From contig NZ_PRDM01000006.1 of NCBI RefSeq assembly GCF_015182285.1, forward strand, positions 62,001 through 126,000: a stretch of 64,000 bases of DNA, given 5' to 3'. This stretch comes from Flavobacterium hungaricum. GTDB lineage: Bacteria > Bacteroidota > Bacteroidia > Flavobacteriales > Flavobacteriaceae. Of this stretch, positions 1-9,935 are shown one piece after another. Numbering within the stretch: the first letter of the stretch is position 1; every line of letters starts with the position of its first letter. The translations under genes and the position numbers were made by a program. The notes beneath the pieces were generated by a model. That model saw only the letters and a program-made list of their open reading frames with translations, was not told the origin of the DNA and did no database searches.

Positions 1-45
1 AATAGTCGTTACTAATAACGCAATTCCGGCTAATAATTTTTTCAT
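1..45 (-). CDS. 5' end of a secreted protein (partial)
   Basis: Only the first 15 codons are inside the window. Read leftward from the ATG at 45 they give MKKLLAGIALLVTTI, a positively charged start followed by a hydrophobic stretch, as in a Sec signal peptide. A consensus -7 element lies about 25 bases upstream on the same strand, which supports this as a real start. The mature protein is outside the window, so no function can be given. Confidence 0.55.
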   Translation of the reverse strand, partial: MKKLLAGIALLVTTI

Positions 46-69
46 GTTTAATCGTATTTATTAAAAAGG

Positions 70-77
70 CAAATTTA
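70..77 (-). promoter_or_regulatory. -7 promoter element for the leftward gene at the window start
   Basis: On the minus strand this reads TAAATTTG, a perfect match to the Bacteroidota -7 consensus TAnnTTTG. It would start transcription about 18 bases before the ATG at 45. I see no clear TTG-type -33 box at the expected distance, so the call rests on the -7 box and its position. Confidence 0.4.
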
Positions 78-331
78 GAATAAATATTATTGTAAGAAAT
101 ACTTTAGTTTTAAAATTTATTATTGAAGCTTTATTTTTACAAATAATTCAGGTTTTTAATTTATCACTTCATTTTGCAATAAATTTAATTGGTATTTTAA
201 GAGATTTAATTCACAGATTTGGCAATAAATGGATGTCTTTGTAAAATCGAAAATTTCGAAAAATCAGCAATTTACCTGTTTAATTGGTTTTGTTTTTTGC
301 TGTAATGCTTATTTTTTCTTTATAAATGAGC
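78..331. other. AT-rich divergent intergenic region, no gene seen
   Basis: This stretch separates the leftward partial gene from the rightward peptidase gene. It is very AT-rich and holds no convincing ORF or strong hairpin. It probably only carries the two divergent promoters at its edges. Confidence 0.5.
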
Positions 332-339
332 TATATTCG
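332..339 (+). promoter_or_regulatory. possible -7 element for the S46 peptidase gene
   Basis: TATATTCG differs from TAnnTTTG at one base and lies 20 bases before the ATG at 360. The same TATATTCGC string occurs before radC at 11679. There is no good -33 box, so this is tentative. Confidence 0.35.
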
Positions 340-359
340 CAGAACTTAAACAAAATAAC

Positions 360-2507
360 ATGAAAAAAGTAATTTTATTCTTGACCATGTGCCTTATGGC
401 TCTTCCTGTGAAAGCCGATGAAGGAATGTGGTTTTTGATGTTTATCGAAAGATTGAACCATAGAGATATGGAAAAAATGGGCTTGCAGTTGACAGCCGAA
501 GAAATTTACAGTATCAATAATCACAGTTTGAAAGATGCGATTGTACAGTTTAATGGAGGCTGTACTGCTGAAATTGTTTCAAAAAACGGATTAGTTTTAA
601 CAAATCACCATTGTGGCTACAATGCGATAGCAGAACTTTCTACTGCAGAAAAAAACTATTTAAAAGATGGTTTCTGGGCAAAAGATAAAAGTGCCGAGAT
701 GAAACCAAAATCGCTATATGTTCGTTTCTTCGTTCGTATGGATGATGTTTCTAAAAGAATTTTGTCAAAAGTCAATGATACGATGACAGAAACAGAAAGA
801 AACGCAATCATTCAACAGGAAATCAGCTTAATCGAAAAAGAGAACAGCGAAAATGGAAAATACACTGTTTCTGTTCGTCCTTTCTTTCAAGGAAATGAAT
901 ATTACTATTTTGTTTACCAAGATTATACAGACGTTCGTTTAGTAGGAACTCCTCCTGAAAGCGTTGGTAAATTTGGCGGTGATACAGACAACTGGGAGTG
1001 GCCTCGTCAAACAGGAGATTTCTCTATGTTCAGAGTTTATGCAGATAAAAACGGAAATCCTGCTGCGTATTCTAAAGACAATGTGCCTTTACAGCCAAAA
1101 CATTATTTACCTGTAAGTATTAAAGGTGTTAAAGAAAATGATTTTGCAATGATTCTTGGTTATCCGGGTAGAACAAATCGTTGGATGCCGGCTGGCGGAA
1201 TTGAGCAAAATATAAACTACTCTTATCCTGCGTGGGTAGAGGGTGCAAAAACCGGAATGGACCAAATGAAAAAGTATATGGATAAAGATGCAACTGTTCG
1301 TTTACAGTATGCTTCTAAATATGCTTCGACTGCAAATTATTGGAAAAACCGTCAAGGTATGATCGATGCTCTTACAAAAGCAGGAACAGTTGACGCAAAA
1401 GCAGCGCAAGAAGATAAATTCTATGAATGGGCAAGCAAGCCTGCAAACAAAGAAAAGTACGAAAATGTAATTCCGACAATTAATGATTATTACAGAGAAA
1501 CAAACTTAAAAGCGCGTCATGATAATTATCTAATACAGCTTTTACGTACTTCTGCTTATGCAACTGGACCAGCGAATCTTGGAAACGCTTTAATTGCTTA
1601 TTACAAAGAAAATGATGCGAAGAAAGCTGAAATGATTCCTAAAATCAATGCATTGGTTGAAAGTATCTATGGGGAATTTTATGCTCCATTAGAAAAAGAT
1701 GTTTTAACAGCACAATTAAATTTATACGCTTCTAAAGCTGCTGAATACGGACTTGCTCCAGAAATTGCAAAAATGCAAAAAGCGAACAATGGAGATTTTA
1801 CTGCAGATGTAGCAAAAGCAACCGAAATTAGTTACTTTACTAATAAAGAAAAAGTATTGGCATTTTTAGCAGATCCAAAACCATTGGCAATTGTACACGA
1901 TCCTTTGTATATTATATCGAATGATTTATTGACAAAATACCGTGCTAAAACAGACGATCAGGCAAAAGCGGACGATGGTTTTGCAACGGCTTACCGTAAA
2001 TTGGTTGAAGGTTTGAGAGAATCAAAATTGAATGCGATTAAATATCCAGATGCAAACTCTACTTTGAGATTAACATACGGAAAAGTTCGTGCTTTACCTG
2101 CTGATAGTCGTAATGAAGATGCAAAAATCAATAACTATACTACAATGGAAAGTATGGTGAAAAAATACAAAGCCGGAGATGCTGAGTTTGATTTACCAGC
2201 CCGTTTATTAGAATTGAACAAAGCAAAAGATTACGGACAATATGCTGATAAAGCAGGTTATATGCCGGTAAACTTTTTAACGGATAATGATATTACAGGA
2301 GGAAACTCTGGTTCGCCTGTTCTTAACGGTAAAGGAGAATTAATTGGTATTGCTTTTGACGGAAACATCGAGGCAATGGCAGGAGATGTAATTTTTGATT
2401 CTAAATTGCAAAGAACGATCAATGTTGATATTCGTTATGTACTTTGGATTATCGATAAATACGCTGGTGCTAAAAACATCATCGACGAATTGACGATTTC
2501 AAAATAA
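360..2507 (+). CDS. S46 family dipeptidyl peptidase, DPP7-like
   Basis: A 715-residue secreted serine exopeptidase that should remove dipeptides from the N-terminus of peptides in the periplasm. A signal peptide (residues 1 to about 19) is followed by DEGMW, the usual mature start of this family. The chymotrypsin-like catalytic residues are visible: His84 in TNHHCGY, probably Asp220 in TGDFS, and Ser650 in GNSGSP. In the characterised Porphyromonas enzymes the residue 18 after the catalytic Ser sets P1 preference: Arg in DPP11 (acidic P1), Gly in DPP7 (hydrophobic P1). Here that residue is Gly668 in FDGN, so I infer DPP7-like specificity. Length matches the family (about 710-720). It stands alone, with its own terminator at 2529. 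The family call is firm; the specificity is inference. Confidence 0.93.
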   Translation: MKKVILFLTMCLMALPVKADEGMWFLMFIERLNHRDMEKMGLQLTAEEIYSINNHSLKDAIVQFNGGCTAEIVSKNGLVLTNHHCGYNAIAELSTAEKNYLKDGFWAKDKSAEMKPKSLYVRFFVRMDDVSKRILSKVNDTMTETERNAIIQQEISLIEKENSENGKYTVSVRPFFQGNEYYYFVYQDYTDVRLVGTPPESVGKFGGDTDNWEWPRQTGDFSMFRVYADKNGNPAAYSKDNVPLQPKHYLPVSIKGVKENDFAMILGYPGRTNRWMPAGGIEQNINYSYPAWVEGAKTGMDQMKKYMDKDATVRLQYASKYASTANYWKNRQGMIDALTKAGTVDAKAAQEDKFYEWASKPANKEKYENVIPTINDYYRETNLKARHDNYLIQLLRTSAYATGPANLGNALIAYYKENDAKKAEMIPKINALVESIYGEFYAPLEKDVLTAQLNLYASKAAEYGLAPEIAKMQKANNGDFTADVAKATEISYFTNKEKVLAFLADPKPLAIVHDPLYIISNDLLTKYRAKTDDQAKADDGFATAYRKLVEGLRESKLNAIKYPDANSTLRLTYGKVRALPADSRNEDAKINNYTTMESMVKKYKAGDAEFDLPARLLELNKAKDYGQYADKAGYMPVNFLTDNDITGGNSGSPVLNGKGELIGIAFDGNIEAMAGDVIFDSKLQRTINVDIRYVLWIIDKYAGAKNIIDELTISK

Positions 2508-2528: not shown

Positions 2529-2586
2529 CCGCCACGAATTCACGAATTAATTAAATAAAATTCGTGAATTCGTGGCGGATTTTTTT
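2529..2586 (+). terminator. long perfect hairpin terminator after the S46 peptidase gene
   Basis: A 20-bp perfect inverted repeat (2529-2548 with 2560-2579, 11-base loop) is followed by a run of seven T's. The sequence CGCCACGAATTCACGAAT resembles intergenic palindromes that I associate with flavobacterial genomes. It sits between convergent genes; the T-run serves only the rightward one. Confidence 0.8.
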
Positions 2587-5500
2587 AATTTACTTTAACT
2601 CGAATTCCCTTAGTATGACTTGTAAATTCGGGCGCATACATACTTTCGATAGTTGTAATTCCATTTGAAAATTCACCGCTGTTGTTAACTCTAATATCAT
2701 ATTCTAAGACGTAAGTTCCTTTGTTTATTCTGTCGAAAAACAAATGTGTTGCAGCATCTTTTGTACTCATATAATATCCTAATCCATTTTTGTATTGGTA
2801 TTCTGAGAGTACATTTACAGGCTCAAAACAAGAAGCACGCATATCTTTTAAATGAATGTATTCAACATTTTCTTTAGTAGAAATAACCAATCTTACAGTT
2901 ACTAGATCTCCAATCTTCAAAGTGTTTCTTGAAGTTATTTTTTCTAATTCGTTTCCGTTCAAAGTATTTTTCTTTATATACAACTCTTTAGAAACCGATA
3001 TCACATCGCCTGAGTTATTTTTGATTTTATCTAAATCTTCAAAATATTGCCAATACACTCCGCCAAAACCAGGAACTTTCGATTTGTTCTGAATGCTGAT
3101 GGAAGCCATTTCTTTCTTTATTTCATCGGCTTTCCAGTTTAGTTTGATGTAGCCTGTTTCGGCTTCTTTTTCGTTTTCGGCTAGTTTTTTGGTGAGGATT
3201 TTTTCATCCCCCAATTTAATAACCGTATTATCTTTTACCGAAAGCCAGTCGGTTCCCTGCATTAATAATGCATAAACAGCTTCGGTTGTCGATTTTGTAG
3301 TCGGCCAGTTTTTGGTCTGTTTGTTTTTCAAGAGCCAGACTTTCATTGCGTCTACAGATTTGGTGTCGTTGGTAATTTCGGCGAAAGCCTCAATCAATAA
3401 TGCTTGAGTTTCTATCGGTGCCTGATACCAAAACCAGCCCGGTTTATTAGCAATCCAGTACATTCCCCAATCTTCATTGTTGGATGATGTTTCTTTTAAA
3501 CTTTCCAAAATGGTTTTGGCAGCTGCTTTTTCGCCAAAACGATTGAGCGTTAAAGCTGCTAGTCCTTTTTCATAAATAGAATACTGCAGCCATTCTTTTT
3601 TCGCTGTTTCTAAATATAACTTTGAAGCTTTTTTTAAAGTATCTGATAATGGATATTTCTCTAAATAAAAACTTCTGGTATATAAATAGTGCAAATCAGA
3701 ATATGGATTGACCCAGATGAGTTTATTTGTCGTTTTTAAATCTTTGACAGTCGTTTTATAATATTCTAAAAATTTAGTGTCTAAGAACGGAATTGCGGTT
3801 TTGGTGATCTCATCGATTTTTGATGCATCAGTTTTACTGAGTTTTTGCAAATGTCCCAGACCGGCCAAAATATGTCTCGTAATATATTCGCTCTCATAAT
3901 CTCCGCCAAACCAAACAAAGCCGCCTGAGGCTTTTTGTTTTTGTTTTAATTTATCAAAAGTGGTTTCTTGTGATGCTTTCATCTTTTCCAAATCAAATAA
4001 AAGCGCTAGATTTTTTTTCTTTTCTTCTTCACTTTGGGCATCTTTTAGCCAAGGTGTTTCGGCTAAAATTATCGATTTTAATTCTTCGTTTTCTTCTAGT
4101 TTAGAATTTAGTTTTCCGTCTTTTCTCCAGTTTTCAAAAACAGTTGCAATTTTCGGATTACTCGAAATAATTTCAGAAGCCAAAGCATTAGCATAAAACC
4201 TAGCAAAAGTCTGTTCTGCACATTCGTGTTCATAATCCATCAAATAAGGCAGCGACTGAATCGCCAGCCAGGTCGGATTTGAAGTATACTCTAAAGTTAA
4301 CTGATGATTTCGTAAAGTCGTTGAATTATTATTTTTAAGATTCTCAAACGTGTATTCTTTTTTAGAATTATCACGAACCCAAATCGGAATACTTTCTGTA
4401 ACCAGCATATTATTTGTCAAGACTGGAAGGATGTTTTCTTCTCCATCAGAATAATTTCCAGCTTTCGCTAAGATCTTATACTGAGCGCCTTGAAGTCCTT
4501 CTGGAATTGCAATTTTCCAAGTTGCTGTTGTATTTCCAAATGAACTAATCGTGAAGTTTTTGACATTTTTTGTATTCAGCATTTTTGCATCAATTGGCTG
4601 CATCGTCATGGCATCAAAAAACTGAAGTATTGCGATTCCAGTTTTAGCTTCAGCTGTAAGGTTCGAGATTTTAGCGCTGATTGTAATCGTATCTTTTTCT
4701 CTTAAAAATCTTGGGAAATTTGGCATTACCATTAACTCTTTTTGAGTAACAATACTTTTTTCTAAATAACCAGAAACAGCTTCTTTATTATGCGCAAGCA
4801 AGCGAAGTTTCCAAGAAGTTAAAGCTTCTGGTGATGTAAACTCAAAACTTACTTTTCCTTTATCGTCTGTTTTTAGGTTTGGATAAAAGAAAGCAGTTTC
4901 TGAGAGGTTTTTTCTGGCTTTGACCTGAGTTATGGCTTCAAGAGATTTTTTGGTTGTAATAATGATTACTCCGCCTGAAGCTTTATTTCCGTAAATGGAG
5001 ATGGCTTTTTCGACAGTTAAGAAATCTATGTCCAGAAAATCGTCAGGGTTTAGTTTTTCGAAATTTTCTTTTGATGAGATCTCTTCGTCAATTACATATA
5101 AAGTTGAAGGAATAACTGTCATTGAAGTTAAACCACTTACAATTTTTTTGCCTGGAATAAATTTTATTTTAGAAGTTCTATAGTAATATTGAATACTATC
5201 CGATACTATTTGAACTCCTGGGACAAATCCAGATAACATTGCTGCTGCATCTTTTTTTGCATTTTCTGCTGCTATCAATTTTGCACCAGCAATAGTTTGT
5301 GCAGCATAAGTAAGCGATTGTTTTTTCTGAGCGCCATAGGCAGTAACAACGACTTCTTCGAGATGACTGGAGTCATCTTCCATGGTTTTATTTAAAGTTT
5401 TAGTATCTGTTACAACAACCGAAATATTTTTTAAGCCGAGAAACGAGAAAACTAATTCTTCACCAGCAACAGCTTCAATTTGATAATAGCCATCAAAATC

Positions 5501-8500
5501 GGAAGTAGCAGTTCTTTTCGTTCCTTTTACAGTTATCGAGACGCCTGGAAGTTCTAATCCACTTTCATCAGTTAATATTCCTGAGATCATTTTTGCATTT
5601 GCAGGTTTTTTTATTTTTTTGCTTAGCTGTTTTAAATATTGGCTTTGCTGATAAAAAGAATCTGAATTATTGAAATCAAAACCAAACCAGATCAAATTTG
5701 TTGACTCGTTGTTAAACTGTATTTTTGGTTTGTATGGGTTTAGATTTTCTATTGTTTTATAGATTTGACCAAAACCTAAAATAGATTTTTTGCTGGCACC
5801 ATTGTAATTGTATTCATAAATATTGGGTGCGATCCACTGTTTTAAGGTGAATTTATCTAAGGAGCTGTCATACATAGACGCTAAAACTTCAGCTTCATTT
5901 TTAGTTTTAGTGGTTTTGAGCTGAAAAGACCAATTTTCAGTGCTTCCCGGCTCAATTTTATTTCTAAAACTTGTAACTTTCCATTCTAATTTTGTCATTT
6001 CGCTTTTTAGAACAACAGGAAATTCTTCATTGAAATACTGATTTTCAAAAATGCTTTCAAATTTTATTTTTAACAACTTTTCGAACTCATTTTTGAATGG
6101 TATTTTAATTACAAGTTCATTGTTGTGTAAATGATGTGCTTGGTCATAAAACAAGTCATTTTTATAATTTCCCGTAATCATAATATAAAGATCTTGAATA
6201 GGAGAAGTTAGTTTTATGCGGACAAAACCATCTTTCTTAGGATCTTCGTTAAGCTGTTGTACGGTCAATAACCTGCTGAGGTTAAACTTGTCTTTGTTTT
6301 GCGAAAGCTGAAAATCTGTAGTGGTTTCAATCGGGTTTTTAAAACTGTCATCGGCACTGAAAACAATTTTGTAATTTCCAGATTTATAATCAGAAATAAA
6401 ATCCAACGGAATGGTTTTCTCTTTTTCGGTGTCGACTTTTCTAGAATAAACCAATGTTTTTAAAGGTTTTTTTTGTAATTCTTTTCCAGTGACTTCAAAC
6501 GGAAATAATTTTTCGAAATCCTGATCTGAGATGTTTTCGATTTCTGGTTTTTCTCCATTCCGAGTTTTAAATTTATTCAAAAATGGATACAGAAAATATA
6601 TTTTCACCTCACCTTTCGCTGCTTTGAATTCACCGTTGAGGTTAGCACTTGTTAAAATAATTTCGTTTCTATCTTTAGTCTGGATTTTGGACGGAAGTCC
6701 AACATGTAGAATTAAATCGTGATAGCCTACTTTTACTTCTGTTTGAGAATCATGCGTCTCTCCATTTATGTCGGTTATAGTGACTTTAATTTCATAAGTA
6801 TAGATTGGTAATTTTTCTTTTACATCGTCTTCTGAAGGCGATGCTGTAAAATCAATAACAAATTTGCCAGCTACATCTGTTTTTGTTTCGCCGTTGGCTA
6901 TTTCTTCTTCATCTTCTCTTCCAAAATAATTTTGTGTATAGCTTGTATAACGTGTAACTGTATATTCTACAATAGCATCCGAAATAGAGCTTCCGGCAAA
7001 AGCTTTGGCAGAACCTCTTACCTTTATTGATTGATTAACTTGAAAAGTTTCTTTTTTAGGATCAAAATTAACCTCAAATTTCGGACGCTTGTATTCTTCA
7101 ACTCTAAAATCTATTTGAGAATTTTCAAAATTTACGTTTTCCCAAAAAGGTAAAATGGCTTTTCCTTTATTTTTTTTATAATTATCAGTTTCATCAACAC
7201 TGATTTTAAACGTGCCTGTTAACCCTTTTTTAGGTAAAATAAATTCTCCCGAGAAAGAGCCAAATTCATTTGTGGTAACGTCAATTTTTTTATAATCGTT
7301 ATTATCAGCATCTTCAATAAGAATTTTGAAAGCAGCATTCGGAAGGACATTCGTTTTCTCGTTGTTTTTTTGAATTGCAATTCCTTTAAAATAAACGGTC
7401 TGGCCAGGTCTGTAAATCGCACGGTCCAGATAAAATTCTACTTTTGCTTTTAGATTATTTGTTTTGTCCGATTGATAACTAGAGTTGTGGTGTAAATAGT
7501 TATTGGTGAGTGAAATTGTGTCATTTCCTAAAGAAAATTCAGTAGTTTCATAATTTCGATTACTATTAGCTTTTTTATAAAAAGCAATACCGTTTTGATC
7601 TGTTATAGCAGTGAATCTTGGAGATCTGATTGTAACATTTTTTAAAGGACTTCCTGTTTTACGGTCTACAACTTGATAGGTTTCTGTTGAATTAATTTCT
7701 GATGCTAATACCGAAAGATTCGAAATCGTAATGGTTTCATAAGTAAAAGCTTCTTGGTTTTTTGCGTTGCTTTCACTTTCAAAATAAACCAAGTATGAAC
7801 CTGTTTTTAGATTCGGCAATAATACTTCTGTAGAATATTGGAAATAATCTTTTTGATTTTTAAGTGGATATGTAATTGCAGCTTCTGGTTTTTGTTTTTT
7901 TGCAATATTCGCAGCTTCAGCATCTTTGCGGCTTTCATATCGATTAAAATAGATCACGTTTTTTTGATCCATTCTAAAAAAAGAAATTTTAAGCTGTTCT
8001 ACGTTTCGGTATTTAATAAAAACGCGTGCATTTTCATTGTCATATAGGTATTTTTGAAGCTGTACACTTACTGATTTTGCGAGTAGTTTTTGTTTTTGAC
8101 TAACAGCCGTTTTATATGCATTCGATCTATTGCTGATTTTTATAATACTGTCCAAAATTGTAATGGCCTGAATATTGTAATCAGGATTTGTCTTTTTTGA
8201 TGCATTTTGCATCAGATATTGCGCTTTTTCTAATTGAATTTTTTGAATCAAAAATTCCTCTTTTGCATTTCTTTGAAGTTTGTTCAGAACATTTAGATAG
8301 TCACTGTCTGTTTCAAATAAAAAGGTGTTACAGAACAATAAACGTTCAAATTGATTGTTTAAAGTCGGATAATTACTTTCTTTTTTTTGGTATAATGAAA
8401 TAACGCAGCGAAGATTTTCATTCGTTACAAAATCCAGATTCACATTTATAAAATCGGAAGTACTGCCCAAAAAAGCCTTTTTATAAGGTGTAAAAGAATA

Positions 8501-9118
8501 TTTTAAGATTTCCCAAGTATGTAGTTTGTTAGTATAAAAAAGTATATTTTCATCTAAAACATAATTAAGCAGATTTTCAGTGTTGAATTTTTCTAATGAC
8601 GGATAATCAAAAATCGCTTCGTAACGTGAAAGCGGTGTTTTTTTTAATTCAAGTTCGTTTTCAAAAGACTGTTTTAGCGCACTTTTTATTTGATCATTAA
8701 AATCTTTTTCAGTCCATGTTAAAAAATTATCTGATAAAACATTAAGATTAGTTCGCTGTCGGATGTTATAATTGTTTTTTTTAAAATAATCATCAAGGCA
8801 TTTGGCATAAACAATATTTAAAATTGCTTTAGATGGAATGGCAGCCTGTTTGATATTTGACTTTAAATTGTTTAAAATTTTAGTCTGCGCATTTTCTTCC
8901 AAAACCAACATGTATTTTGACTGATAAAAAAAACATTTTATCATTTGTACTTCATCTTTTTGGGCGGTAGCTTTTTTATGAATTTTAATAACAAGATCAT
9001 TTGCAGATTTTATTTTACCCGCTTTTTCAAAAGCAATAACATCATCCCATTTTTTTTCGGATTGTTGTGCAAAAAGAGCGGAAGAAAACACAAAGAATAC
9101 AAATAATATATTTTTCAT
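2585..9118 (-). CDS. giant alpha-2-macroglobulin family protein with embedded CarboxypepD_reg/TonB-plug module
   Basis: A 2177-residue secreted protein (signal peptide about 1-17, ending SALFAQ, no lipobox Cys). The N-terminal 450 residues are helical-looking and unassigned. A bacterial MG2 signature (YRPGQTVYFKG) follows near 560, then macroglobulin-like beta domains. Residues 1177-1391 form a carboxypeptidase-regulatory-like domain plus a SusC-type plug (LEEVVVTAYGAQKK to IYGNKASGGVIIITTKK) with no beta-barrel after it. The A2M domain follows (TSPEALTSWKLR), then the thioester motif C1633-A-E-Q1636 inside HECAEQTFARFYAN, and an alpha/alpha-toroid-like thioester domain. An intact CxEQ suggests a working covalent protease trap in the periplasm or at the surface. 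The usual neighbour pbpC is absent. The family call is secure; the role of the plug is unknown. Confidence 0.9.
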   Translation of the reverse strand: MKNILFVFFVFSSALFAQQSEKKWDDVIAFEKAGKIKSANDLVIKIHKKATAQKDEVQMIKCFFYQSKYMLVLEENAQTKILNNLKSNIKQAAIPSKAILNIVYAKCLDDYFKKNNYNIRQRTNLNVLSDNFLTWTEKDFNDQIKSALKQSFENELELKKTPLSRYEAIFDYPSLEKFNTENLLNYVLDENILFYTNKLHTWEILKYSFTPYKKAFLGSTSDFINVNLDFVTNENLRCVISLYQKKESNYPTLNNQFERLLFCNTFLFETDSDYLNVLNKLQRNAKEEFLIQKIQLEKAQYLMQNASKKTNPDYNIQAITILDSIIKISNRSNAYKTAVSQKQKLLAKSVSVQLQKYLYDNENARVFIKYRNVEQLKISFFRMDQKNVIYFNRYESRKDAEAANIAKKQKPEAAITYPLKNQKDYFQYSTEVLLPNLKTGSYLVYFESESNAKNQEAFTYETITISNLSVLASEINSTETYQVVDRKTGSPLKNVTIRSPRFTAITDQNGIAFYKKANSNRNYETTEFSLGNDTISLTNNYLHHNSSYQSDKTNNLKAKVEFYLDRAIYRPGQTVYFKGIAIQKNNEKTNVLPNAAFKILIEDADNNDYKKIDVTTNEFGSFSGEFILPKKGLTGTFKISVDETDNYKKNKGKAILPFWENVNFENSQIDFRVEEYKRPKFEVNFDPKKETFQVNQSIKVRGSAKAFAGSSISDAIVEYTVTRYTSYTQNYFGREDEEEIANGETKTDVAGKFVIDFTASPSEDDVKEKLPIYTYEIKVTITDINGETHDSQTEVKVGYHDLILHVGLPSKIQTKDRNEIILTSANLNGEFKAAKGEVKIYFLYPFLNKFKTRNGEKPEIENISDQDFEKLFPFEVTGKELQKKPLKTLVYSRKVDTEKEKTIPLDFISDYKSGNYKIVFSADDSFKNPIETTTDFQLSQNKDKFNLSRLLTVQQLNEDPKKDGFVRIKLTSPIQDLYIMITGNYKNDLFYDQAHHLHNNELVIKIPFKNEFEKLLKIKFESIFENQYFNEEFPVVLKSEMTKLEWKVTSFRNKIEPGSTENWSFQLKTTKTKNEAEVLASMYDSSLDKFTLKQWIAPNIYEYNYNGASKKSILGFGQIYKTIENLNPYKPKIQFNNESTNLIWFGFDFNNSDSFYQQSQYLKQLSKKIKKPANAKMISGILTDESGLELPGVSITVKGTKRTATSDFDGYYQIEAVAGEELVFSFLGLKNISVVVTDTKTLNKTMEDDSSHLEEVVVTAYGAQKKQSLTYAAQTIAGAKLIAAENAKKDAAAMLSGFVPGVQIVSDSIQYYYRTSKIKFIPGKKIVSGLTSMTVIPSTLYVIDEEISSKENFEKLNPDDFLDIDFLTVEKAISIYGNKASGGVIIITTKKSLEAITQVKARKNLSETAFFYPNLKTDDKGKVSFEFTSPEALTSWKLRLLAHNKEAVSGYLEKSIVTQKELMVMPNFPRFLREKDTITISAKISNLTAEAKTGIAILQFFDAMTMQPIDAKMLNTKNVKNFTISSFGNTTATWKIAIPEGLQGAQYKILAKAGNYSDGEENILPVLTNNMLVTESIPIWVRDNSKKEYTFENLKNNNSTTLRNHQLTLEYTSNPTWLAIQSLPYLMDYEHECAEQTFARFYANALASEIISSNPKIATVFENWRKDGKLNSKLEENEELKSIILAETPWLKDAQSEEEKKKNLALLFDLEKMKASQETTFDKLKQKQKASGGFVWFGGDYESEYITRHILAGLGHLQKLSKTDASKIDEITKTAIPFLDTKFLEYYKTTVKDLKTTNKLIWVNPYSDLHYLYTRSFYLEKYPLSDTLKKASKLYLETAKKEWLQYSIYEKGLAALTLNRFGEKAAAKTILESLKETSSNNEDWGMYWIANKPGWFWYQAPIETQALLIEAFAEITNDTKSVDAMKVWLLKNKQTKNWPTTKSTTEAVYALLMQGTDWLSVKDNTVIKLGDEKILTKKLAENEKEAETGYIKLNWKADEIKKEMASISIQNKSKVPGFGGVYWQYFEDLDKIKNNSGDVISVSKELYIKKNTLNGNELEKITSRNTLKIGDLVTVRLVISTKENVEYIHLKDMRASCFEPVNVLSEYQYKNGLGYYMSTKDAATHLFFDRINKGTYVLEYDIRVNNSGEFSNGITTIESMYAPEFTSHTKGIRVKVN
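4946..5590 (-). other. SusC-like CarboxypepD_reg plus plug module inside the A2M protein
   Basis: This segment encodes residues 1177-1391 of the macroglobulin protein. It starts with ISGILTDESGLELPGVSI and a DFDGYYQI motif, typical of the N-terminal extension of SusC proteins. It continues with a LEEVVVTAYG box and a plug ending YGNKASGGVIIITTKK. The same motifs occur in the true SusC gene at 19943-23170 (DFDGKYSI, IMITTKKGKK). Frame and codon use continue smoothly on both sides, so it is a real in-frame insertion. Confidence 0.85.
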
Positions 9119-9248: not shown

Positions 9249-9935
9249 ATGAAAAAACTGTTATTTCTTTTTGTACTTGTGCCGGCATTCTGCTGGGCAC
9301 AATCTAATTTTGAAAAAGCAGAAAAATTATTCCATTCCAAAAAGTATACTGAAGCCCAAGTTATTTTTGAATCTATATTGAAAACAAAACCTTCAGATGT
9401 CAAGACCTTAGATTATTTGGGAGAAATTGCGGGTCATAAAAAATCTTGGGTAGAAGGTGCTTCTTATTTCAAAAAACTCACAGAATTAAAACCTAACAAT
9501 GCCGATTATTTTTTTAAATATGGAGGATGTCTGGCCATGCATTCGCAAGAAGTAAATAAGTTAAAAGCTTTCGGAATGGTTGGCGATATGAAAGCTGCAT
9601 TTGAAAAAGCAATTGAACTCAATTCAAAACATGTGCAGGCAAGATGGGCATTGATAGAAATTTATCTGCAATTACCAGGAATTTTGGGTGGAAGCGAATC
9701 TAAAGCCGTTTCATATTCTAACGAATTGGCACAGTTTTCTCCAGTTGACGGTTATTTGTCTAAAGGTAGAATCGAAGAATATTTTAAAAGATATAATCTT
9801 GCCGAAAAAAATTATATGAAAGCACATGAAATTGGCAATTCAAAAGTGACATTTCAAAAATTATATAATTTATATTTGAACAAATTAAAGGAGCCTAAAA
9901 AGGCGCAGGAATTGAAACGAAAATTTGAAGCTTAA
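9249..9935 (+). CDS. secreted tetratricopeptide repeat protein
   Basis: A 228-residue protein with a clear signal peptide (about 1-18, ending FCWAQ) followed by helix-turn-helix repeats with TPR-like spacing: FEKAEKLFHSKKYTEAQ, then repeats around residues 55-75, 110-140 and 160-215 (for example YNLAEKNYMKAHEIG). TPR proteins are protein-binding scaffolds, and this one should act in the periplasm. It is divergent from the macroglobulin gene, so co-regulation is possible but nothing shows it. The partner is unknown. Confidence 0.75.
   Translation: MKKLLFLFVLVPAFCWAQSNFEKAEKLFHSKKYTEAQVIFESILKTKPSDVKTLDYLGEIAGHKKSWVEGASYFKKLTELKPNNADYFFKYGGCLAMHSQEVNKLKAFGMVGDMKAAFEKAIELNSKHVQARWALIEIYLQLPGILGGSESKAVSYSNELAQFSPVDGYLSKGRIEEYFKRYNLAEKNYMKAHEIGNSKVTFQKLYNLYLNKLKEPKKAQELKRKFEA

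Follow-up and report, generated by a model that had tools for sequence, protein, structure and literature searches.

A Flavobacterium macroglobulin with a SusC-type N-terminal module at its predicted bait position, a candidate self-mimicking protease bait

A 64,000-nucleotide stretch of the Flavobacterium hungaricum genome (the window; contig NZ_PRDM01000006.1, positions 62,001 to 126,000) contains a macroglobulin gene with the N-terminal part of a SusC transporter embedded in its frame. Profile matches identify this module as a SusC N-terminal extension (NTE), TonB box and plug, with the barrel missing, and orthologue alignment and structure modelling place it where the bait is expected. Our favoured explanation, to which we give slightly less than an even chance, is that the gene encodes a protease trap with a bait built from this module, acting as a mimic of the cell's own transporters.

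A preliminary description of the window had reported one uninterrupted frame of 2177 codons at 2585–9118. This holds, and the strand, which had gone unstated, is the minus strand. The protein is also a complete macroglobulin as described: MG2, A2M and bMG10 domains were found, the first two passing their curated cut-offs, and the single thioester motif, CAEQ at residue 1633, is of the type I CxEQ form of bacterial macroglobulins. The reported CarboxypepD_reg domain and TonB-type plug without a barrel (residues 1177–1391) were recovered with Pfam and with the NCBIfam SusC model TIGR04056. The latter matches residues 1177–1406 (expectation value, E, 5e-48) over profile positions 2–220 of 981 only, so that NTE, TonB box and plug are present and the barrel is absent. 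Lacking a barrel and scoring 164 bits against a family cut-off of 368, the protein is not itself a SusC transporter. All seven PDB chains matched by sequence (E up to 0.01) were N-termini of SusC/RagA proteins or TonB receptors. Pfam PF07715 (Plug) was unlisted for the window protein at E up to 1 and was found in its orthologue at locus L009. For comparison with the TonB box of the module, that of Bt1763 is given as VDEVVV in the part of PMC7782687 consulted. Full-length orthologues of identical layout in other genomes rule out a frame error or a chimeric assembly and show that the arrangement is not due to chance; an ordinary macroglobulin domain is ruled out by the SusC profile match. Proteins of the window's type occur in 75 of 296 genomes of the order (E<=1e-60) and in 61 of 296 genomes of the phylum (E<=1e-30).

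The module had been placed just before the bait domain. The orthologue alignment and the fold match correct this: the module is predicted to occupy the bait position itself. In the orthologues, two conserved blocks (around WFGF, and RKNLxETAFFxP) bracket a segment of very variable length. It measures about 50–95 residues in some members of the window's family and in a second family of this order, and elsewhere 127–191 residues in some orthologues and 236–320 in the rest. We modelled residues 1000–1530 from an alignment of 44 relatives taken from an 80-locus scan described below. The four best structural matches were E. coli and Salmonella A2M (chain residues 846–1076), namely 4rtd (Z 9.2, root-mean-square deviation 6.5, 166 aligned; model 13..531 on chain 855..1076), 4u4j (Z 9.1), 4ziq (Z 8.8) and 5a42 (Z 8.3). 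Several matches to macroglobulin (MG) or Ig-type domains span model residues ~14 to 460 with just 90–110 positions aligned, which suggests that the sequences before and after the module together form a single MG domain. For the NTE, model residues 175..235 align with the SusCdex NTE 9hfj (Z 6.7, 61 aligned). E. coli bait residues 923–942, described in the consulted part of PMC4498604 as unseen in the cleaved structure, fall inside the chain range matched by the model. In a profile comparison, the first part of the split MG domain also overlaps weakly with the A2M_BRD region of the paralogue L033. Together, the fold match, the alignment and this overlap put the bait in the MG domain before PF00207, as in other bacterial macroglobulins, and indicate that the module replaces or extends it. 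The earlier suggestion of an alternative bait is thereby supported in part, by where the module sits and by how variable the segment is. By sequence, a profile built from 21 short-bait orthologue segments retrieved no macroglobulin from the PDB.

To compare baits, NTE, plug and barrel profiles were built from 30 SusC proteins of the window genome, and 73 baits were scored, 55 from the order and 18 from the rest of the phylum. This count leaves out L033 and L034 (other paralogues) and L038 (truncated frame); L223, in which the motif was not found, and L027, which the boundary rule passed over, are also missing from it. At E<1e-3, 37 of the 73 baits matched the NTE or plug profile and 31 the plug profile, with no match in 1460 shuffled baits, the 73 preceding segments or the 73 following segments (8 of the latter shorter than their bait). 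Bait states vary among close relatives, from the full module through NTE, TonB box and plug start, or the second plug half only, to short baits. A tree of the 55 orthologues, computed from the sequence that follows the bait, requires at least 16 state changes, against a minimum of 4 and a mean of 27 in shuffles. The sisters L035 and L036 differ in this way, the former with NTE, TonB box and the beginning of the plug, the latter with the whole module, while their C-terminal parts are 95% identical. Even short baits retain traces of SusC. A TonB-box motif is present in 13/38 of them against 5/760 shuffles, and in none of the flanks. A GRAG/IRG-type plug motif is likewise present in 13/38, against 40/1900 shuffles, and 7 of the 8 short baits with both motifs have them in reversed order relative to SusC; the wider GRAG/IRG pattern and the patterns for TonB-box/plug order were chosen after reading the sequences, and a first IRG pattern was not clearly enriched (4/38 short baits, 23/760 shuffles, 10/38 preceding segments). 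NTE matches extend to 4 of the 18 baits from other orders (L209, L211, L216 and L221). Judged from these sequences, the bait is a fast-changing patchwork, and pieces of self proteins can make up bait regions.

Other features of the baits and their families were seen in passing. Judged only by eye, the L210 bait looks like the N-terminus of a TonB receptor outside the SusC class. A TSP3-like motif occurs in 3/73 baits (L069, L074 and L219), and similar repeats are found in the protein beside the paired genes of L122 (low-end frame). The second family of the order (e.g. L030, L062–L071) has lost the thioester (SADV and the like), and its C-terminal part is ~42% identical to that of the window protein.

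Where close pairs can be aligned, the module is under purifying selection, although less so than the rest of the gene. In three pairs among L006, L007 and L041, the ratio of non-synonymous to synonymous divergence (dN/dS) of the module is 0.23–0.26 (module dS 0.39–0.72), compared with 0.17–0.19 for the N-terminal half and 0.10–0.13 for the C-terminal half. Wider pairs with a full or partial module gave 0.18–0.47, which are rough values (dS >1 in many), and the short-bait pairs L062/L063 and L064/L066 gave 0.25 and 1.7, the latter hardly alignable. Synonymous divergence is uneven along the gene: for L035/L036, dS falls from 1.72 in the N-terminal half to 0.50 in the C-terminal one, and a similar, ~3x excess on the N-terminal side is seen for L064/L066. 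This suggests recombination within the gene, with exchange between alleles.

The window genome has 37 SusC genes over the family cut-off, all of which start at profile position 1–4 and so keep their own N-terminus. Compared with 30 of these 37 proteins, the window module matched all 30, the 8 best being 31–38% identical. For L044, the one genome picked for its well-kept-looking plug, the bait reaches no more than 49% identity with any SusC of the same genome, except for a stretch of 42 residues at 55%. Neither of these two cases gave a sign of recent gene conversion from a SusC gene of the same genome. The plug tree is poorly resolved (129 columns, 131 rows, 24/128 inner branches starred). On the best tree, window-type plugs require 8 changes, of which starred branches force at least 2, and no donor of the module can be named from it.

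A self-mimicking bait would work as follows. A protease would attack periplasmic parts of the cell's own outer-membrane transporters: the NTE, the linker with the TonB box, or a plug once it has been expelled from its barrel. The same protease would cut the transporter look-alike in the bait; the cut macroglobulin would collapse around it, and the CAEQ thioester would then bind it covalently. In the sections of PMC7782687 that bear on this, closed SusCD in vitro has its plug outside the barrel, and in one preparation the SusC plug was cleaved. A free plug can thus be a protease target, SusC plugs and linkers may be natural targets of periplasmic proteases, and a macroglobulin displaying the same sequence would catch such a protease. 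A bait that is swapped, trimmed and rebuilt fast would be expected of a part tuned to changing proteases.

Several points weigh against this explanation. The protease, its cleavage and trapping, the periplasmic location and the function of the module as a self-mimicking bait are all inferred. The structure model is of low confidence (predicted local distance difference test, pLDDT, 60; predicted template-modelling score, pTM, 0.37), Foldseek alone gave no match at E<0.001, and Z 9.2 is modest, given that a best Z of 7–8 is usual for models without a clear match according to the aligner's notes. At E<1e-3, 36/73 baits match neither the NTE nor the plug profile, and elsewhere in the Bacteroidota several baits are linkers rich in Ala, Pro and Glu; a bait can therefore do without mimicry. 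Finally, L006, L007 and L041, whose modules are constrained, carry SAEQ in place of CAEQ. The covalent step cannot be what retains the module there, and the motif speaks against a trap that works by covalent binding alone in their lineage. A Pseudomonas macroglobulin lacking the thioester still traps protease, according to the portion of PMC5764988 consulted.

The bait might instead tolerate nearly any sequence, with SusC N-termini entering it as the commonest recombining DNA and the module doing nothing more than being cuttable. The high copy number of SusC genes, the scrambled SusC scraps in short baits, the large length changes among close relatives and the presence of other material such as the TSP3-like motif all agree with such neutral filling. 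We nevertheless consider it unlikely, as the dN/dS of the module in close pairs is near that of the N-terminal half, the TonB-box motif persists in about a third of the short baits, and neither the window module nor the L044 bait shows signs of recent copying.

A further alternative, in which the module docks as a real plug in the lumen of a SusC-type barrel, arises from a second, two-gene arrangement. The window genome has three A2M matches. One of these, a paralogue outside the window (L105:7386-11921; 1511 codons, thioester CFEQ), has a Plug domain (PF07715) at residues 690–780, between MG2 and A2M. Only 4 bases upstream lies a 918-codon SusC-family gene with an NTE and without a plug. The pair spans L105:4625-11921 on contig C1. 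The NTE part of L105:4625-7378 also has a weak NCBIfam match to BamP (21 bits against a cut-off of 230), probably reflecting a shared NTE-type domain.

Searches with the C-terminal part found the paired type in 10/196 genomes of the order and, with two candidates scored per genome and among the rows listed, in at least 5/395 genomes of the phylum. Named genomes were also scanned, with the C-terminal part as the sole guide. The best 80 of 530 loci were taken, and they lie in Flavobacterium and further Flavobacteriaceae, in Chitinophaga and its relatives, in bins of Cytophagales and one of Bacteroidales, and elsewhere. Of 91 loci, 90 had an intact macroglobulin frame and 86 also had at least 2.4 kb of upstream sequence and could be tested (excluded were L197, with no intact macroglobulin frame, and L147, L155, L169 and L177, with <2.4 kb upstream). 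A plug-bearing macroglobulin stood next to a barrel frame without a plug match at 76/86 loci and next to a barrel frame with a plug at none; 8/86 had neither plug nor barrel. The remaining two (L160 and L194) had a plug and no adjacent barrel by frames of at least 200 residues, and a six-frame search found the barrel in both. Across 3.2 kb upstream, this search detected a barrel at 78/78 plug-bearing and 0/8 plug-free loci. Gaps between the two genes measure 3–6 nt in 58/77 pairs. An NTE match is present in 40/77 barrel frames and absent from 37/77; five of the 77 are shorter than 750 residues (494–707) and may lack their own N-terminus, and no plug was found upstream of these short frames by six-frame search (L155 not included). 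At the Flavobacterium phragmitis locus L128 the SusC model is split between the two proteins, with positions 209–981 in the barrel protein and 67–225 in the macroglobulin; this barrel protein has its own NTE, and the two genes lie at L128:1831-4593 and L128:4601-9136.

Fold alignments drew on 44/70 macroglobulin fragments and 57/63 listed barrels from the 80-locus scan. The barrel model was good (pLDDT 87.4, pTM 0.79), and its matches to 5t4y_C (Z 26.9, 657 aligned, chain 210..1016) and 5fq6_B (Z 24.3, 706 aligned, chain 171..984) begin at chain residues 210 and 171, indicating a SusC barrel from behind the plug onward. Plugging in trans is our preferred reading of the paired type, and by a small margin we expect that the macroglobulin would act in this way. 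Some observations temper it. Plug–barrel co-occurrence is a single phylogenetic contrast: a test of independent pairs found 1 such pair on starred branches and has no statistical power. In a mirror-tree analysis the partial distance correlation of plug and barrel was 0.20 (0/500 permutations as high) and that of the N-terminal MG domains and barrel 0.48, so the correlation is not plug-specific. At L119 and L122 (2/78), a further plug piece lies upstream in a separate frame.

Around the paired genes, neighbours beyond the two differ between genera (15 loci listed). Plug pieces near the frame start were noticed in genes directly upstream of a plugless barrel at L120:1-1749, L124:3-1739, L121:8428-10200 and L126:3-1706; those of L120 and L124 encode von Willebrand factor A (VWA) proteins, YfbK-like in L124 and with a type IX secretion system (T9SS) sorting tail in L120. 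L138, a contig that carries the label Limnohabitans, clusters with Flavobacterium in the tree of macroglobulins and is probably mis-binned. Genome G060, marked as belonging to the genus of the window, clusters there with F. hydrophilum, in line with the genus Flavobacterium.

For the window gene itself, plugging in trans would seat the macroglobulin under an outer-membrane pore and couple it to TonB through the TonB box of the bait. The link to TonB/SusCD proposed in the preliminary description gains indirect support from the plug-baited paralogue beside its plugless barrel. However, no barrel, plugless or otherwise, lies beside the window gene, none was found next to its orthologues at 56 loci, most of them with short flanks, and the 37 SusC proteins of the genome have N-termini of their own; we therefore regard this reading as distinctly improbable here. 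In the very divergent L032, a flanking frame truncated at the end of the locus matches the plug. A broader proposal, which we hold to be possible with some reserve, is a two-gene outer-membrane machine of Bacteroidota: a SusC-type pore would have ceded both plug and TonB box to a periplasmic macroglobulin, as its bait, and be plugged by it in trans, a TonB pull on the box or a pore-entering protease that cuts the plug would free the plug and spring the thioester trap at the pore mouth, and the window protein would be a free-standing cousin with a plug-like bait and without a private barrel. Last, TonB might grip the TonB box of the bait and pull, springing or resetting the trap mechanically, and the TonB box is indeed a persistent SusC piece in short baits; with 25/38 of these lacking it by the same pattern, such a gate is very improbable.

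Table 1. Features of the macroglobulin gene, in window coordinates.
Feature	Residues	Position	Strand	Basis
Macroglobulin gene (2177 codons, single open frame)		2585..9118	minus	Pfam and NCBIfam matches
Signal-peptide-like start	1-17	9068..9118	minus	Judged by eye from sequence
MG2 domain	562-647	7178..7435	minus	Pfam PF01835, E 3e-17
Split MG domain hosting bait, first part (predicted)	~1012-1110	5789..6085	minus	E. coli/Salmonella A2M fold comparison
Whole bait position (predicted)	~1150-1398	4925..5671	minus	Orthologue alignment
SusC NTE / CarbopepD_reg_2	1178-1258	5345..5587	minus	Pfam, E 5e-14; NTE fold match
TonB box LEEVVVTAYG	1253-1262	5333..5362	minus	Read in sequence
TonB-type plug incl. 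TonB box	1253-1391	4946..5362	minus	TIGR04056; own SusC plug profile, E 4e-24
A2M domain	1408-1492	4643..4897	minus	Pfam PF00207, E 7e-17
Thioester motif CAEQ	1633-1636	4211..4222	minus	Single occurrence in protein
bMG10 domain	2040-2164	2627..3001	minus	Pfam, E 5e-31

By eye, no cysteine directly follows the signal-peptide-like start of the window protein, which is thus probably soluble, either periplasmic or secreted. The gene is flanked by a convergent gene (360-2507), which we take from its look to be an S46-type peptidase, and a divergent one (9249-9935) that looks like a tetratricopeptide repeat (TPR) protein. Relatives of these peptidase-like and TPR-like neighbours adjoin the orthologues in 12 and 16 of 56 loci, respectively, mostly with short flanks. 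PADLOC models of known anti-phage defence matched none of the three proteins (0 families each, E 1e-3).

Both protein families are well known, and we found no paper in the open-access literature in which a macroglobulin is joined with a SusC/TonB plug. NCBIfam has no dedicated model for these proteins: the window protein and the paired macroglobulin receive SusC-type matches only, and the barrels match SusC only below the cut-off, one with a weak BamP match as well. The combination links TonB-dependent import with macroglobulin protease trapping, two well-studied and so far unconnected systems, and offers a concrete hypothesis for what bacterial macroglobulins protect, namely the cell's own transporters. 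If its plug works in trans, the paired type would exceed a variant of known families. It is a candidate transporter with a plug supplied by another protein, to our knowledge the first.

Compared with E. coli YfhM/ECAM and Salmonella A2M, the window protein is alike in its MG2, A2M and bMG10 domains, its CxEQ thioester and a predicted bait inside an MG domain. It differs in having no cysteine after the signal-like start and in the bait, which is a disordered loop in E. coli A2M and here comprises ~250 residues with a SusC NTE, TonB box and plug. Complement C3, C4 and C5 have a folded anaphylatoxin domain at the position of the flexible bait of A2M. The likeness lies in a folded domain at the bait position; the domain itself is unrelated, and its cleavage releases a peptide signal. 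With the SusC/RagA N-terminus the module shares TIGR04056 positions 2–220 and the NTE fold, but it has no barrel and is flanked on both sides by macroglobulin domains. In Myxococcus, Oar, a TonB transporter with an NTE, is needed for secretion of the protease PopC, as stated in the part of PMC6434023 consulted; by analogy, this may serve as a precedent for TonB transporters meeting proteases, and no more. Some orthologues lack the thioester cysteine, as does the type II MagD of Pseudomonas in the consulted part of PMC5764988; unlike MagD, the window protein has kept its CAEQ.

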